From Bdellovibrio svalbardensis (GTDB lineage: Bacteria > Bdellovibrionota > Bdellovibrionia > Bdellovibrionales > Bdellovibrionaceae): DNA of 64,000 nucleotides. Position 1 is the stretch's first letter, and each line of letters opens with the position of its first letter. Below, in pieces: positions 32,909 through 52,131 of this stretch. Location of the stretch: contig NZ_JANRMI010000002.1 in assembly GCF_029531655.1 (NCBI RefSeq), positions 248,001 through 312,000 on the forward strand, read 5' to 3'. The notes under the pieces are model-generated. The model was not told where the DNA came from, did not search any database, and worked only from the letters and a program-made list of their open reading frames with translations. The position numbers and the translations under genes are program-made.

Positions 32909-34324
32909 CTATTTATAACCAAAGAGCTTTTTGCTCTTAATAAGATCGCGGACCTTTTCAGGAACGCAGGCTTCCCAACGAGCATCTCCTTTTTCAAGAA
33001 GGTTCATGACGTCTTGAGAGTGCAGATATTCCCCAGTTTCATCACAGCCGGAGATATCCACGATCTGCTTGTTTTCTGTGAAGTACGAATAGATATGACG
33101 AAGATGTGGAGCCGGGAAGAAGCTCTTCGTTGTCATACAAAGTTGAGCCGTCTTATGCGGGTAAACGTAGAGTTTAGTTTTTTGCTCCAGCAGTTTGCCA
33201 AGTCCTTCCAGAAGACCGCCCTCAAGATCATTGTAGTGCTCTTCTTCGAAGAGCTTTTCTAAAGAGCTTGCACCCACAACCAAGGCCATGAAATGAGAAT
33301 TGTAGCGACGTAAGAACCTCTTCAAACCGTAGAACAAGAAGAAGTTAGAAATCAGAACATGGAAACCCAGAGCCGTTAAAATCTCAACACGCTCAAGGAA
33401 GTCTTTTTCATTCACATGCCCATCCGTTTGCAGGTTGTGCATGGTCAGTTCCATGATTGGCAGAACTTCCACATCTTTGCCTTCGCTTTTCAAAATGTCG
33501 GCGTGACTTTGCACCAAACCTTTTTGAAGGACATCAATATGGGTCGCCGTCACAGGACGGAAAGTGCCACGCTGGATCAGTAAAGATTTGCCGTAAACCG
33601 CGTCTGACACATTCAGGATTTCATTTTTAGGAGAGAACAAGATCGCATCAGCCAAGCCACGACGAACCAGCTCTAGATTCATCAGACGGTCATCGAAATG
33701 CTGCAGATCCGGGCCGTCGAACTTGATCACGTCGATGACGATTTGACCTTCGCGAAGGCTGTCGACCAAACTGTCGATAAAGCCTTCGACTTTATTGGTA
33801 TGATAGAAAGCACAATTCAATAGATTTACGCCCAAGATGCCCAAAGCTTCTTGTTGTTGCAAACGATGACGATCAAGCATGCGCACATGCAAGATGATAT
33901 CGTTGTGTGGGGCACCTGGTTCTTTTTGGAAGCGCACTCCCATCCAACCATGCGATTGTTTGGAGGCTCCAGAAGAAGCGGTGGCCACAGTGTTGGCGAA
34001 TGAGAAGAAGCGAGATTGAGGACCACGGTGAGTTGCCAAACGCTCAATCAGAAGTTTGTATTCATGCGAAAGCATTTTTAGTAAGCGTGATTCACACACA
34101 TAACGGCCGTTGGCTTCGCGGCCATAGATGTCATCACTGACGATCATGTCGTAAGCTGAAATAGTCTTAGCAATTGTTTGTGAAGCTTTGCCGGCTTGGA
34201 AGAAGTGGCGAGCCACTTCTTGTCCGGCACCGATTTCGGCGAAGGCGCCATAACGAGAAAGATCTTGGTTGATGCGCAGAGCTTTGCCCAGTGTCGTTTC
34301 TGTGTTGCAATTTCCATCTGGCAT
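32909..34324 (-). CDS. conserved cytosolic protein of unknown function
   Basis: A 471-residue protein without signal peptide or membrane helices. Its start has FAEIGAGQEVARHFFQAG, then TIAKTISAYDMIVSDDIYG. I recall similar proteins in Bacteroidetes and Planctomycetes that carry labels such as nicotinate-nucleotide adenylyltransferase or TonB receptor; I see no motif here that supports either. It contains several His/Cys residues in the C-terminal half but no clear metal motif. It lies 3 bp after the DUF502 gene, so they are coupled. Confidence 0.7.
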   Translation of the reverse strand: MPDGNCNTETTLGKALRINQDLSRYGAFAEIGAGQEVARHFFQAGKASQTIAKTISAYDMIVSDDIYGREANGRYVCESRLLKMLSHEYKLLIERLATHRGPQSRFFSFANTVATASSGASKQSHGWMGVRFQKEPGAPHNDIILHVRMLDRHRLQQQEALGILGVNLLNCAFYHTNKVEGFIDSLVDSLREGQIVIDVIKFDGPDLQHFDDRLMNLELVRRGLADAILFSPKNEILNVSDAVYGKSLLIQRGTFRPVTATHIDVLQKGLVQSHADILKSEGKDVEVLPIMELTMHNLQTDGHVNEKDFLERVEILTALGFHVLISNFFLFYGLKRFLRRYNSHFMALVVGASSLEKLFEEEHYNDLEGGLLEGLGKLLEQKTKLYVYPHKTAQLCMTTKSFFPAPHLRHIYSYFTENKQIVDISGCDETGEYLHSQDVMNLLEKGDARWEACVPEKVRDLIKSKKLFGYK

Positions 34325-34327
34325 TGC

Positions 34328-34927
34328 TTAAACCTCGTCGTTCTTTTCAGCTTTTACCCAGCCAGTGATGGCAAGGCTCATAGCTTTTTCAATTGGCATA
34401 TCTAATGGTGTGATTTTAGAACGGGGAACCATCAAAGTAAATCCGCCCAGACCGTAACTCATAGGAATATAAACCGCCAGACGATCTCCTGCATTCTGAT
34501 CAATTGCCGGAAGATCTTTGAAGTTTTCTCGGGTCACAAGACCCAAGGCACGAACACCTGTTTCGCCCATATCGACCAAAACCACGGTCTGCAATCCACC
34601 GGGACCACCACCCTTAGAGAACAGATTCATCAGGTCGCGCAGGGGACTGTAGATGGCCTTTATAAAAGGAACTTTCATCAGCTGTTGTTCGAGACGATGG
34701 AAGACCCCCGCCGCGATCAAGTTATTCAGCAAGAAACCCAACAAGAAGATAATGAGGATGGTGAGGAGAAAGCCCAAACCAGGAATATAGACAGGCATCA
34801 CCTGGCGAAGAGCGTCTCCTAAAAGACTGTCGACGATCGAGATGCCGGCATAAACGATATAGATCGTCAGGGCGACGGGAAGAAATGTAACCAAGCCCTG
34901 CAAGAAAATTTTCTGAAGATGTTTCAT
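34328..34927 (-). CDS. DUF502 family inner-membrane protein
   Basis: A 199-residue protein with two membrane helices (about 8-32 and 50-75) and a soluble C-terminal domain. Family marks are GLVTFLPVALTIYIVY, KVPFIKAIYSPLRDLMNLF and the VVLVDMGETG and YIPMSYGLGG stretches. Function of DUF502 is unknown. First gene of a two-gene operon with 32909-34324. It diverges from the subtilase-PilZ gene across 167 bp. Confidence 0.9.
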   Translation of the reverse strand: MKHLQKIFLQGLVTFLPVALTIYIVYAGISIVDSLLGDALRQVMPVYIPGLGFLLTILIIFLLGFLLNNLIAAGVFHRLEQQLMKVPFIKAIYSPLRDLMNLFSKGGGPGGLQTVVLVDMGETGVRALGLVTRENFKDLPAIDQNAGDRLAVYIPMSYGLGGFTLMVPRSKITPLDMPIEKAMSLAITGWVKAEKNDEV

Positions 34928-35094
34928 ACTTAGATGTTCCCTGTTGAATCTATATCGGTAGAGTTCCTGTAAAAAATAAATAACAGCTTAAAGTCGACTC
35001 TTCAAGGGGTTACGCCATCCTGAATTGAGACGTTTTTTTTACTAAACCCGACTGGACTTGCGACCGAAAAGAAAGGGTCACCAAAGGAGATCCC

Positions 35095-36987
35095 GTGAAA
35101 CGGATTCTAACAGGCCTATTTTCATCGTTGTTGGTCTCTGCGCCAGTACTTGCGCAGAGCATTCAAGCCGTTCCGGGTGAGTTTATCGTTAAGTATAAGT
35201 CGACCGCGATGAGCGTCAGTAACGTTCGCGCCAAGCTGTCTTCGAAGGCAAGCTTGCACAAGGCTTTCCCAGCCATGGGGATGTATCACATCTCCATGAA
35301 GGCGGGAGTCGGGGAGGCGGCAAATCTTGAGGATATCAAGGCGGATCCTGATGTGGAGTACGTTGAACCCAACTATATTTGGGATAAGGGAAGCGATTCT
35401 GCTCCTACTGATAACAGTGCTCTGGTGAATGTCTATCAAGACTCTTATACCTATAATGAAGCCATTACTTTGACCAGGGCCAGAGCGGATAATCACTTCT
35501 ATCAAGCGACTTTGAATACCGGAGTTGAAAACTCTTGGTCGCAGTTGTCTCCGTTAGGCGCTAACGAAAATAAGGTCGTCGTGGCAGTCGTTGACACGGG
35601 TGTGGACACATCACACAAGCTTTTTAAAACCGTGGCGAATGGTGGAGCAAATGCCTTGTGGACTAACACACGTGAGCTGAATGGTGTAGGCGGCGTTGAT
35701 GACGATTCTAATGGTTATGTCGACGATATTCACGGTTGGAACTTCATTACTAATACTTCCAATTATATCGATGATGATAATCACGGAACCCATGTGGCGG
35801 GGATTATCGTTGGTGCCGGTCAAAATATTTTTGCCAATCCTTTGGCGGAATCCAAAGTTTCAATTATGCCTCTGAAGTTCTTGGGGGCTAATGGATCTGG
35901 AACGACGACGGCAGCTATTAATGCCATCTATTATGCTGTGAATAACGGTGCCGATGTCATTAATAACTCGTGGGGCGGTTCAAGTTACTCCAGAGCTTTG
36001 CACGAGGCTTTGAGCTATGCTTATGATCACCAAGTATTGATTGTCTCTGCTGCAGGTAATATGGGCAGCAATAACGACAACACTCCGATCTATCCTGCGA
36101 ACTACGATGTGCCGAGCAATATTGCGGTGGCTTCTTCAACAAATAATAATTTCAACCCAGCGATCTCCGGATTCTCGAACTACGGTGTAAACCTGGTTCA
36201 AGTGGCGAGTCCTGGTGAAGATATTCTGAGTACCATTATTGGTGGCAAGTATGCCTCTATGAATGGCACTAGTATGGCGGCTCCTTTTGTTGCGGGTATG
36301 GCGGCATTGGCCTTGCGCGAAGACCGAATTCTGACGGGTTATCAGTTGAAGCAATTGGTTTTGAACAGTGTCAGTGCGAAGCCATTGTACCGCTCTTATA
36401 TTTCATCCGGTGGTCTTATTGACGCCAATAATTTGATTGTGTCAGCGAAAAGCTCCGTGGGCACGATGTCAGCCTATCAGCCTGACTATAAAGCTCAGCT
36501 TCGTAGTGTTGCGAGTGATGGTGCTTCGAGTGGCGGCGGTGGCTGTGGTTTAGTCAGTACGGCTATTCATGGCGGTCCTGGTAGCGGCGGTCCCACTCCA
36601 ATGGGTGGCGTTGTAGCTGGCCTGTTGTGTTTGCCGTTAGCTGTATGGTTTGTGCTTCGTCGACGTGATCCAAAAAATCTTCGTCGCCACGAACGCTTCC
36701 GCATGAGCTCAGAGATCCGCGTGATGGTCGGTGACCGTGAACTGGTGGGTTCGGTGAATACGATTTCCCAAGGCGGTTTGTCATTCAATACGGATCAGGC
36801 TTTGGAAAAAGGCGGTATTGTCACAATGCGAATTGCCAGCCCTGACGGCCACGAAGTCATCGAGGTTCAAGGTCAGGTTGTGTGGAACGAGCAGAATCAA
36901 GCGTACGGAGTTCAGTTCGCAAATGCTCGTCAAGGAACACTCGCTATGATCCAACAATGGACTCAGGCGTTTGGTAAACCATCGTAA
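35095..36987 (+). CDS. subtilisin-like protease with CTERM-like anchor and cytosolic PilZ domain
   Basis: A 630-residue protein starting at GTG 35095 behind AAAGGAG. Order: signal peptide (about 1-21); inhibitor I9 propeptide (about 25-95); S8 peptidase domain with D167 (VVAVVDTGVD), H230 (NHGTHVAG) and S393 (NGTSMAAPF), an intact triad; Gly/Ser/Cys-rich linker (GGGGCGL, about 480-502); membrane helix (about 503-520); Arg cluster (522-524); then a PilZ-like domain (about 528-625) with RRHERFR (R530, R534) and TISQGG (556-561, Thr where Asp/Asn is usual). The Gly/Cys-TM-Arg part resembles CTERM sorting signals. Protease outside and c-di-GMP-type receptor inside is an unusual join. Confidence 0.9.
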   Translation: MKRILTGLFSSLLVSAPVLAQSIQAVPGEFIVKYKSTAMSVSNVRAKLSSKASLHKAFPAMGMYHISMKAGVGEAANLEDIKADPDVEYVEPNYIWDKGSDSAPTDNSALVNVYQDSYTYNEAITLTRARADNHFYQATLNTGVENSWSQLSPLGANENKVVVAVVDTGVDTSHKLFKTVANGGANALWTNTRELNGVGGVDDDSNGYVDDIHGWNFITNTSNYIDDDNHGTHVAGIIVGAGQNIFANPLAESKVSIMPLKFLGANGSGTTTAAINAIYYAVNNGADVINNSWGGSSYSRALHEALSYAYDHQVLIVSAAGNMGSNNDNTPIYPANYDVPSNIAVASSTNNNFNPAISGFSNYGVNLVQVASPGEDILSTIIGGKYASMNGTSMAAPFVAGMAALALREDRILTGYQLKQLVLNSVSAKPLYRSYISSGGLIDANNLIVSAKSSVGTMSAYQPDYKAQLRSVASDGASSGGGGCGLVSTAIHGGPGSGGPTPMGGVVAGLLCLPLAVWFVLRRRDPKNLRRHERFRMSSEIRVMVGDRELVGSVNTISQGGLSFNTDQALEKGGIVTMRIASPDGHEVIEVQGQVVWNEQNQAYGVQFANARQGTLAMIQQWTQAFGKPS

Positions 36988-37118: not shown

Positions 37119-38459
37119 TTAGAGCAGAACACCGTGAAGGACGAAGCTTGCTACTGAGAAGTAGATGATAAGACCCGTCACGTCGACCAATGTGGCAACG
37201 GCAGGTGCTGAGGCGCTGGCAGGGTCGAAGCCAACCTTCTTAAGAAGGAAAGGCAGCATGGAGCCCGAGATTGTTCCCCAGAGGACAATGCCGATCAAAC
37301 TGAGCATGACGGTAATCGCCACCAGAACATAGTGAGGGCCGTATAAGGCTTCGCGTGTTGGCCAAATCAGGATACGGCATAGACCGACTAAACCCAAAGT
37401 GACACCCAAGCACAGACCTGCCATCAGCTCGCGGCCGAGGACACGCCACCAGTCGCGCAGACGAACCTCTCCGAGGGCCATGGCGCGAATGATCAGTGTT
37501 GAGGCTTGAGACCCTGAGTTACCACCTGAGCTGATAATCAATGGAATGAAAAGAGCCAAGACGACAGCACGTTCGATTTCTGTTTGGAAGTAGCCCATCG
37601 CAGTTGCGGTGAACATTTCGCCCAAGAAAAGAACCAACAACCAGCCCGCACGTTTTTTGATCATCTCCATCATTGAGATTTTCATGTAAGGGGCATCAAG
37701 GCTTTCAACCCCCCCGAGTTTGTGGATGTCTTCAGTAGCTTCCTCTTGAATCGCATGTGCAATGTCGTCGAATGTCACGATACCACGCATGACTCCGTGT
37801 TCATCGACAACGGGGATGGCCATCAATTCATGCTGAGAAAAAATGCGACCAATCTGCTCCTGGTCCATCTCTGGTGGAAGCTTGAGAATATCTGTGTGCA
37901 TGATATCCACGATCTTCGTTCCCTGCGCTGCAGAGAAAATTTCGCGGAAGGAGATAACCCCCAGGAGCTTCTGATCTGAATCCAGAACATAGGCATAGTA
38001 AATCGATTCAACATGAGTCTTGGCTTGAATTCGCAAATAGCTGATAGCTTCATCCACCGTCATATCGGGACGGAGGCGTACGAAGCGGGTGCTCATCAAA
38101 CCGCCGGCGGCATCTTCTGCATAAGCGAGAAGTGCAATGACTTCGCGTTTGGTTTGCGGGTCTAGTAACGATAAAAGATCCTCTTTGGATTCATGACCAA
38201 TCTCTTGAATAAGATCGGCCACGTCATCGGGAGCTAGCAAGCGAACCCACGAGCGTTTCTCGAGATGAGACGCTTCGGCGATAAGCTCTGCTTGATCATG
38301 TGTTTTTAGACTGAGGAAAAGTTCTTCGGCATCGGTACGGGGCAGTTCCTTGAACTTTTCACGTCGTTCGTCAGGAGTCATTGAAGACCAAGAGTCCAAA
38401 AGGGTGAGGACTGTCTCTTGCTCTGGTTTCTCATCGAGGATTTGGTTGTTGTCTTCCAT
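37119..38459 (-). CDS. mgtE: magnesium transporter MgtE
   Basis: A 446-residue Mg2+ channel. The order is a cytosolic N domain with helical repeats (about 1-130), a CBS pair (about 135-255), and five membrane helices (about 285-446). Family marks include DAAGGLMSTRFV, SGGNSGSQASTLIIRA and the pore region SASAPAVATLVDVTG. In the family the N and CBS domains gate the pore by sensing cytosolic Mg2+. The frame can open at GTG 38462, but ATG 38459 is more likely. Confidence 0.93.
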   Translation of the reverse strand: MEDNNQILDEKPEQETVLTLLDSWSSMTPDERREKFKELPRTDAEELFLSLKTHDQAELIAEASHLEKRSWVRLLAPDDVADLIQEIGHESKEDLLSLLDPQTKREVIALLAYAEDAAGGLMSTRFVRLRPDMTVDEAISYLRIQAKTHVESIYYAYVLDSDQKLLGVISFREIFSAAQGTKIVDIMHTDILKLPPEMDQEQIGRIFSQHELMAIPVVDEHGVMRGIVTFDDIAHAIQEEATEDIHKLGGVESLDAPYMKISMMEMIKKRAGWLLVLFLGEMFTATAMGYFQTEIERAVVLALFIPLIISSGGNSGSQASTLIIRAMALGEVRLRDWWRVLGRELMAGLCLGVTLGLVGLCRILIWPTREALYGPHYVLVAITVMLSLIGIVLWGTISGSMLPFLLKKVGFDPASASAPAVATLVDVTGLIIYFSVASFVLHGVLL

Positions 38460-38532
38460 CACCGCCGCCCGTGCTGTTAACTTTTGTGTGCCGAAGGAAT
38501 ACCCCTTTTCATCGGCACCCGCAAACTTTTAA

Positions 38533-51441: not shown

Positions 51442-52131
51442 ATGGAAACAAAATCACTCGGTCTTGAGCGCCCCTTGGTAGTGCAGTTGGCGGCCGCAGT
51501 CTTGATAGCAACTCCCGTTATGGATATTCTGAGCGGCCATCGTTCAGGATCCTATTTATTTGATGCTCTAAGTTGGCTTCTTATCTTCGGAGCCGGGGCA
51601 AGTTTAATGGTGCGCCATAAGTCTTCGTGGCTCTTGGGTATTGTTCTTTGCGTTCTGTTTGTTATCTATAATCTCTTTACAATTATTCAATCAATGCAGC
51701 CAGGTGGAAATCCCGTCGCTCAAACAGCGCGGTTGTTAGATTGTCTGTTGGTGGCTTTCATTATTGGATCGGTATTCTATTTCTTCCGCTATCCATATTT
51801 GGATCGCCGTCAACATTGGTTTGCGCCTACGGGAAGCCGTTTTGCCGCTCAAACACCCGTGGTCCTCAACGGGGCTTTTCAGACAAATTCTTTGGATCTG
51901 TCATACACAGGAGCTCGTATTGCTCTGCCCCAAGGTAACGCGGGTGTGGGGGGATTCAAAAAAGGGGACCGTGTGTCATTACTACTGAGTGAGATTAATG
52001 ACCTTCTTTTTCAGGCCAAAGTCCTTGAGGTGCAAGAGAGTTATATCCGGGTGCATTTCGAGGGGGCTTCTGCGCAAGAACAAGAATTGATTCGTCAATG
52101 GTTGTCGAGCCAGAATTTGCCAAAGGCATAG
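51442..52131 (+). CDS. four-span membrane protein with C-terminal PilZ domain
   Basis: A 229-residue inner-membrane protein. Hydrophobic helices lie at about 11-30, 38-57, 62-82 and 99-119, and a cytosolic PilZ-like domain runs from about 120 to the end. The second PilZ motif is canonical, DLSYTG (152-157). The first arginine arm is irregular (R122, R123, then R133), so c-di-GMP binding is uncertain. The ribosome site is weak. Divergent from the cytochrome-porin across 83 bp. Confidence 0.8.
   Translation: METKSLGLERPLVVQLAAAVLIATPVMDILSGHRSGSYLFDALSWLLIFGAGASLMVRHKSSWLLGIVLCVLFVIYNLFTIIQSMQPGGNPVAQTARLLDCLLVAFIIGSVFYFFRYPYLDRRQHWFAPTGSRFAAQTPVVLNGAFQTNSLDLSYTGARIALPQGNAGVGGFKKGDRVSLLLSEINDLLFQAKVLEVQESYIRVHFEGASAQEQELIRQWLSSQNLPKA

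Follow-up and report, generated by a model that had tools for sequence, protein, structure and literature searches.

A conserved membrane-anchored subtilisin carrying a C-terminal PilZ domain in Bdellovibrio and its relatives: a candidate for inside-out control within a single chain

Bdellovibrio genomes encode many PilZ proteins. Deletion of GGDEF proteins in Bdellovibrio blocks specific steps of predation (PMC3271064), and the pilZ genes Bd2524, Bd2545 and Bd3100 fall after the attack phase (PMC2797640). The combination of a subtilisin-like (S8) protease with PilZ was listed in 2008 for Bdellovibrio bacteriovorus, as 'Subt-PilZ' (NP_969350.1), in one table and one sentence (PMC2605481). This protein has S8 followed by PilZ, the same order as in the gene described here and likewise in a Bdellovibrio, and, compared by description only, is presumably its orthologue; the membrane helix, Cys motif, conservation and mechanism do not appear in that description. 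Bd2692 (BspE) was also considered as a counterpart but rejected, being an S8 protease of 53 kDa without a further domain. No functional study of Subt-PilZ was found in the literature searched (mostly open-access papers), nor was any c-di-GMP receptor fused to an exported protease. Steering of periplasmic proteolysis by c-di-GMP is known from the LapD-LapG system (PMC3032545, PMC3032553).

The S8-PilZ gene occupies positions 35095..36987 (+ strand) of the window, i.e., the whole stretch of 64,000 nucleotides analysed here, and encodes a protein of 630 residues with a signal peptide, a prodomain, the S8 protease, a Cys-containing linker, a membrane helix and the PilZ domain. It is a single intact frame running from a GTG start codon, preceded by the ribosome-binding sequence AAAGGAG (35083..35097 including the start codon), to TAA; a frameshift or stop between residues 500 and 530, which the preliminary description had named as grounds for abandoning the fusion, is absent from the frame. 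The GTG start is shared by 19 of 21 genus members, mostly 3' of AAGGAG, and its retention in the genus may indicate that translation is held low. Matches in a promoter scan of the gene did not rise above the chance level.

All parts of the protein are encoded on the + strand. The first 20 residues (35095..35154), as read from the sequence, are a predicted Sec signal peptide with the cleavage site MKRILTGLFSSLLVSAPVLA/Q. The following prodomain (residues 21-93, 35155..35373) is of the fervidolysin type (Fervidolysin_NPro-like, Pfam PF22148; 3.4e-7, 31 bits against a cut-off of 21) and replaces the inhibitor I9 assignment of the preliminary description, given that no match to I9 (PF05922) is reported. 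The Peptidase_S8 domain (residues 159-426, 35569..36372; PF00082, 1.7e-52, 179 bits against a cut-off of 21.8) contains the triad D167 (35593-35595), H230 (35782-35784) and S393 (36271-36273), which had been located correctly and is invariant in all 109 homologues. Next comes a Gly-rich linker (residues 446-502, 36430..36600) with an invariant cysteine, Cys484 (36544-36546), in the motif GGGGCGLV. The linker leads into a membrane helix (residues 503-521, 36601..36657), the sole hydrophobic segment besides the signal peptide (mean Kyte-Doolittle value 2.26); this helix spans residues 503-522 in a full-length structure model from one sequence, which at a pLDDT of 35 is of low confidence and otherwise unusable. 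The helix is immediately followed by the Arg cluster RRR (residues 522-524, 36658..36666), a positive-inside signal, so that the succession of linker, single helix and Arg cluster noted earlier is present in full. According to the rules for membrane proteins, an N-terminal export signal combined with a later helix that is followed by RRR puts the N-terminal side outside and the C-terminal side inside. The S8 protease is predicted to lie outside the membrane and the PilZ domain in the cytosol, an orientation that had been proposed before and that the export signal, the one helix and the RRR after it support.

This layout is broadly conserved. The whole-genome search covered one phylum, and 109 homologues were read and aligned, 104 of these with PilZ and 5 without. 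The architecture search that had been suggested as a check recovered this arrangement, with S8, helix and PilZ in succession, in 104 genomes, all belonging to the class. Within the family, which is represented by 66 genomes from 20 genera, most genomes have a full-length match; the matches extend over ten families of the order, and another family of the class contributes three genomes. The gene is usually single-copy and occurs in most genomes of the class; the majority of genomes that lack it are either fragmentary or small (1.2-2.1 Mb). Elsewhere in the phylum, the fusion was not found, the only matches being weak ones to separate PilZ proteins. A scan of genome contigs gave one distant Clostridiales subtilase. 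Most sequenced relatives retain this build, which makes the S8-PilZ protein a real and probably important one. That the fusion results from a sequencing or assembly error, or from a chance join, has a negligible probability and can be dismissed: no point in support of it was found, and 104 independent genomes share the identical layout. The PilZ domain is the slowest-changing part of the protein and evolves more slowly than the protease, with a mean identity within the genus of 81% for PilZ, 63% for S8 and 50% for the linker, and dN relative to genome G015 of 0.089 for PilZ vs 0.225 for S8 (dS is saturated in this comparison, and no dN/dS ratio is quoted).

The protein can be interpreted as a single-pass, periplasm-facing subtilisin of the inner membrane under inside-out control by its cytosolic PilZ domain, an interpretation in which we place about even confidence. 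The subtilisin domain would be exported by Sec, face the periplasm and mature through removal of the prodomain, with helix 503-521 holding it in the inner membrane and PilZ sitting in the cytosol. The PilZ domain would respond to some state within the cell, c-di-GMP being the most likely, and its signal would pass via the helix and a short flexible linker to set the place, the time or the target of proteolysis. Inside-out control, which LapD-LapG achieve with two proteins, is the simplest function for a cytosolic PilZ domain attached to a periplasmic protease. Observed here are an unbroken frame, its domains, catalytic and RxxxR residues that are intact, and a layout conserved in its entirety; from these we infer the topology in the cell, ligand binding, the direction of signalling and the substrates.

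Residues 529-623 (36679..36963) match PilZ (Pfam PF07238) with 9.7e-18 and 64.8 bits against a cut-off of 22.5, the top score among the 19 PilZ domains of the genome, and thus the PilZ-like domain of about 100 residues in the preliminary description is a genuine PilZ. That description had made its case depend on a PilZ fold being predicted. The AlphaFold2 model of residues 519-630 from a single sequence (pLDDT 65, modest confidence) is a barrel with a C-terminal helix, and its closest solved structures are the PilZ domains of Alg44 and BcsA. The first Foldseek matches are to the Alg44 PilZ with c-di-GMP (probability 1.00, E 1.2e-3). By VIA-align, the model is nearer to the c-di-GMP-binding PilZ domains of Alg44, BcsA and YcgR than to the non-binding XC1028 type (Z up to 9.3 vs 5.7): Z is 9.3 for BcsA (rmsd 3.0, 88 aligned), 8.9 for Alg44 (rmsd 3.4, 90 aligned) and 5.7 for XC1028 (rmsd 4.0, 81 aligned). 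A sequence search of the PDB with PilZ produced weak matches only. Fold likeness to binders does not by itself demonstrate a ligand.

The two motifs typical of c-di-GMP-binding PilZ domains differ in how closely they follow the canonical form. The RxxxR motif (R530 and R534, 36682..36696) is located where it had been described and is invariant in all 104 PilZ-bearing homologues. The second motif, (D/N)xSxxG, is represented by TISQGG (residues 556-561, 36760..36777). The earlier reading of this motif as degenerate was right about its place; in the alignment of the 104 homologues, it proves to be a kept variant rather than a decayed motif, because G560 and G561 are invariant (104/104), S558 is found in 101 and T or S prevails at the D/N position. 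The residues at that position are T in 57 sequences, S in 38, C in 4, D in 3, V in 1 and N in 1, i.e., T or S in 95 and the canonical D or N in only 4. The main doubt over c-di-GMP binding lies in this substitution, since the D44A mutation abolishes binding in Alg44 (PMC12564702). Despite the T or S, the invariant R530 and R534 argue for a ligand, and the genome carries four GGDEF genes able to make c-di-GMP. Binding of c-di-GMP by this PilZ domain is plausible. The specific form of the inside-out reading, in which c-di-GMP would bind the PilZ variant (RxxxR with [T/S]xSxGG) and one helix would set the periplasmic subtilisin, can be put forward tentatively, with a confidence somewhat short of even.

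The chief rival is a role of PilZ in docking without any ligand. Under this rival, PilZ would bind no nucleotide and would tether the anchored protease to some partner or cellular site, such as a pole or a secretion machine. Non-binding PilZ adaptors have precedents, for example the Xanthomonas PilZ protein that acts with PilB and FimX (FimX-PilZ-PilB, PMC12943098); the departure of the second motif from (D/N)xSxxG in 100 of 104 sequences fits a similar role, and the strongly conserved surface of the whole PilZ domain would also suit a protein partner. However, non-binding PilZ adaptors lack critical residues, whereas RxxxR is invariant here, the fold is nearer to the binders than to the XC1028/PilZ type, and linkage to a partner gene is absent outside the family. 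We regard docking as unlikely, although it deserves serious consideration.

The S8-PilZ gene is flanked by a divergent DUF502 gene (34328-34927) and a convergent MgtE gene (37119-38462). These neighbours are syntenic only within the family and hence the context names no operon partner. The DUF502 gene is paired with a gene for a 471-residue protein (32909-34324, - strand) that has no Pfam or NCBIfam match and stays next to the protease gene in those genomes of the family that were examined. Elsewhere in the window, a membrane protein (51442-52131, + strand) has a weak C-terminal PilZ match (33 bits) without a clear RxxxR. Outside the window, the genome contains a second S8-PilZ association, in this case as neighbours (L153:1280-3757; G000:C2:147779-150256): 81 bases downstream of the gene for a secreted S8 protease of 521 residues, and in the same orientation, lies a gene whose product of 276 residues is a membrane protein with several helices and a C-terminal PilZ domain. 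At another locus outside the window (L141; G000:C4:324964-326469), a GGDEF gene has, downstream on its own strand, the gene of a short secreted S8 protease that shows no obvious prodomain.

Five homologues end directly after the Cys motif, the helix and the basic residues. The preliminary description had held that homologues with the two parts as separate genes would speak against it; none were found, only these five that lack PilZ altogether, and a PilZ frame is absent from the loci read around them. In the tree of the protease part, five changes of the PilZ state are needed, and well-supported branches enforce at least four of these (the tree comes from a quick search with SH-aLRT support only; an earlier, careful tree agrees on the main groups). 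PilZ-bearing members surround the PilZ-less ones and hence losses are the simpler reading, with at least four separate losses of PilZ and retention of the anchor. The repeated loss implies that the protease can do without PilZ in some settings, and the Cys-helix-basic anchor is a unit of its own. In genome G119, the PilZ-less copy is the sister of the full-length copy of the same genome. This PilZ-less copy (L176:4025-6521) overlaps, tail to tail, the gene of a rhomboid protease with a zinc-ribbon end, which could be a processing enzyme.

The preliminary description had likened this anchor to CTERM sorting signals. The likeness holds for the layout, with an invariant Cys, a helix and a basic end that is C-terminal in the five PilZ-less homologues, and fails in the tests for known sorting systems. 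Cys484 is invariant in 109/109 sequences (GC in 106, CG in 107) and is the only cysteine of the exported part in 73 of the 109, which leaves it without a regular disulphide partner in the chain. In MYXO-CTERM, cleavage by the CPBP protease MrtX requires the invariant Cys (PMC11980579). By analogy, the tail might be a true sorting signal: Cys484 would be lipidated and a membrane protease would cut behind it; the S8 protease would then reach the surface, the helix-PilZ stub would remain behind, and PilZ would time the release. The Cys pattern, the resemblance to MYXO-CTERM, the five proteins ending exactly at the Cys-helix-basic part and the rhomboid gene overlapping one PilZ-less copy are in line with such sorting. 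Against it, two tail fragments had no match among the NCBIfam CTERM models at E up to 10; the tail does not lie at the very C-terminus, the place of MYXO-, JDVT- and GlyGly-CTERM signals, except in the five PilZ-less homologues; and a profile of 20 tails matches only the S8-PilZ gene in the genome. A CPBP protein occurs in 54 of 140 genomes of the order, and most complete genomes of the genus have none, yet keep the tail; the sole CPBP protein of this genome scores 23.6 bits vs 75 for MrtJ, and rhomboids are present but, in the 24 genus genomes searched, none reaches the rhombosortase cut-off. Both CPBP and rhombosortase were rejected as the sorting enzyme for lack of co-occurrence or sub-threshold scores. 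Given these negative results, the tail is not assigned to CTERM; the sorting idea is weak, and the reading as a whole, with a release timed by PilZ, appears quite improbable, although something other than these enzymes may lipidate or cleave the protein at Cys484.

A signal could also run from the outside in: after the protein cleaves itself in the linker, or after some change on the outer side, PilZ would be released or altered and would then act in the cytosol. Protease and flexible linker share one chain, and a Bdellovibrio subtilisin, BspE, trims itself at both ends when expressed (PMC6510308), but a cut in the linker, outside the membrane, does not alone free PilZ, and a second, intramembrane protease is not gene-linked in most genomes; this direction seems more improbable still than sorting. 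For the inside-out reading count the intact triad (109/109), RxxxR and GG (104/104), the conserved layout, the slow evolution of PilZ, the fold match and the GGDEF genes; T or S at the D/N position (95/104), the effect of D44A in Alg44, the losses of PilZ (at least four) and the pLDDT of 65 count against it.

Altogether, what is new here is the membrane layout, the anchor with its invariant Cys, the forms that lack PilZ, and how widely and in what pattern the protein is conserved; each known system shares only part of the design. The best NCBIfam match of the protease is the T7SS mycosin (TIGR03921), also a subtilisin on one C-terminal helix that faces outward, with a score of 121.7 bits, below the membership cut-off of 278.75. 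Mycosins end after the helix and are not known to carry PilZ. MYXO-CTERM proteins, the substrates of myxosortase, share the invariant Cys, helix and basic residues; unlike these, the S8-PilZ tail is not C-terminal in PilZ-bearing members, belongs to one protein per genome, matches no model and has no conserved sortase. Alg44 and BcsA, membrane proteins whose PilZ domain faces the cytosol as predicted here, provide the nearest PilZ folds, but control polysaccharide synthesis and export and involve no protease, and the canonical D44 of Alg44 is T in this protein. LapG-type cysteine peptidases (PF06035) are absent from this genome and present in 1 of 24 genus members, where a Peptidase_C93 gene lies about 10 kb from the S8-PilZ gene (L175; G007:C8:50598-50867). 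If the proposed mechanism is true, a class of bacteria with predators among its members would possess, almost throughout, an ancient single-chain switch that couples second-messenger decisions directly to proteolysis at the envelope; the gene is found in most genomes of this class, with the sensor more conserved than the enzyme. In the accepted precedent, LapD-LapG of Pseudomonas, a cytosolic c-di-GMP receptor likewise controls periplasmic proteolysis, but two proteins are needed, LapD being a degenerate GGDEF-EAL receptor that holds the cysteine protease LapG, whereas S8-PilZ puts the sensor, a PilZ domain, and the exported protease, a subtilisin, in one chain.
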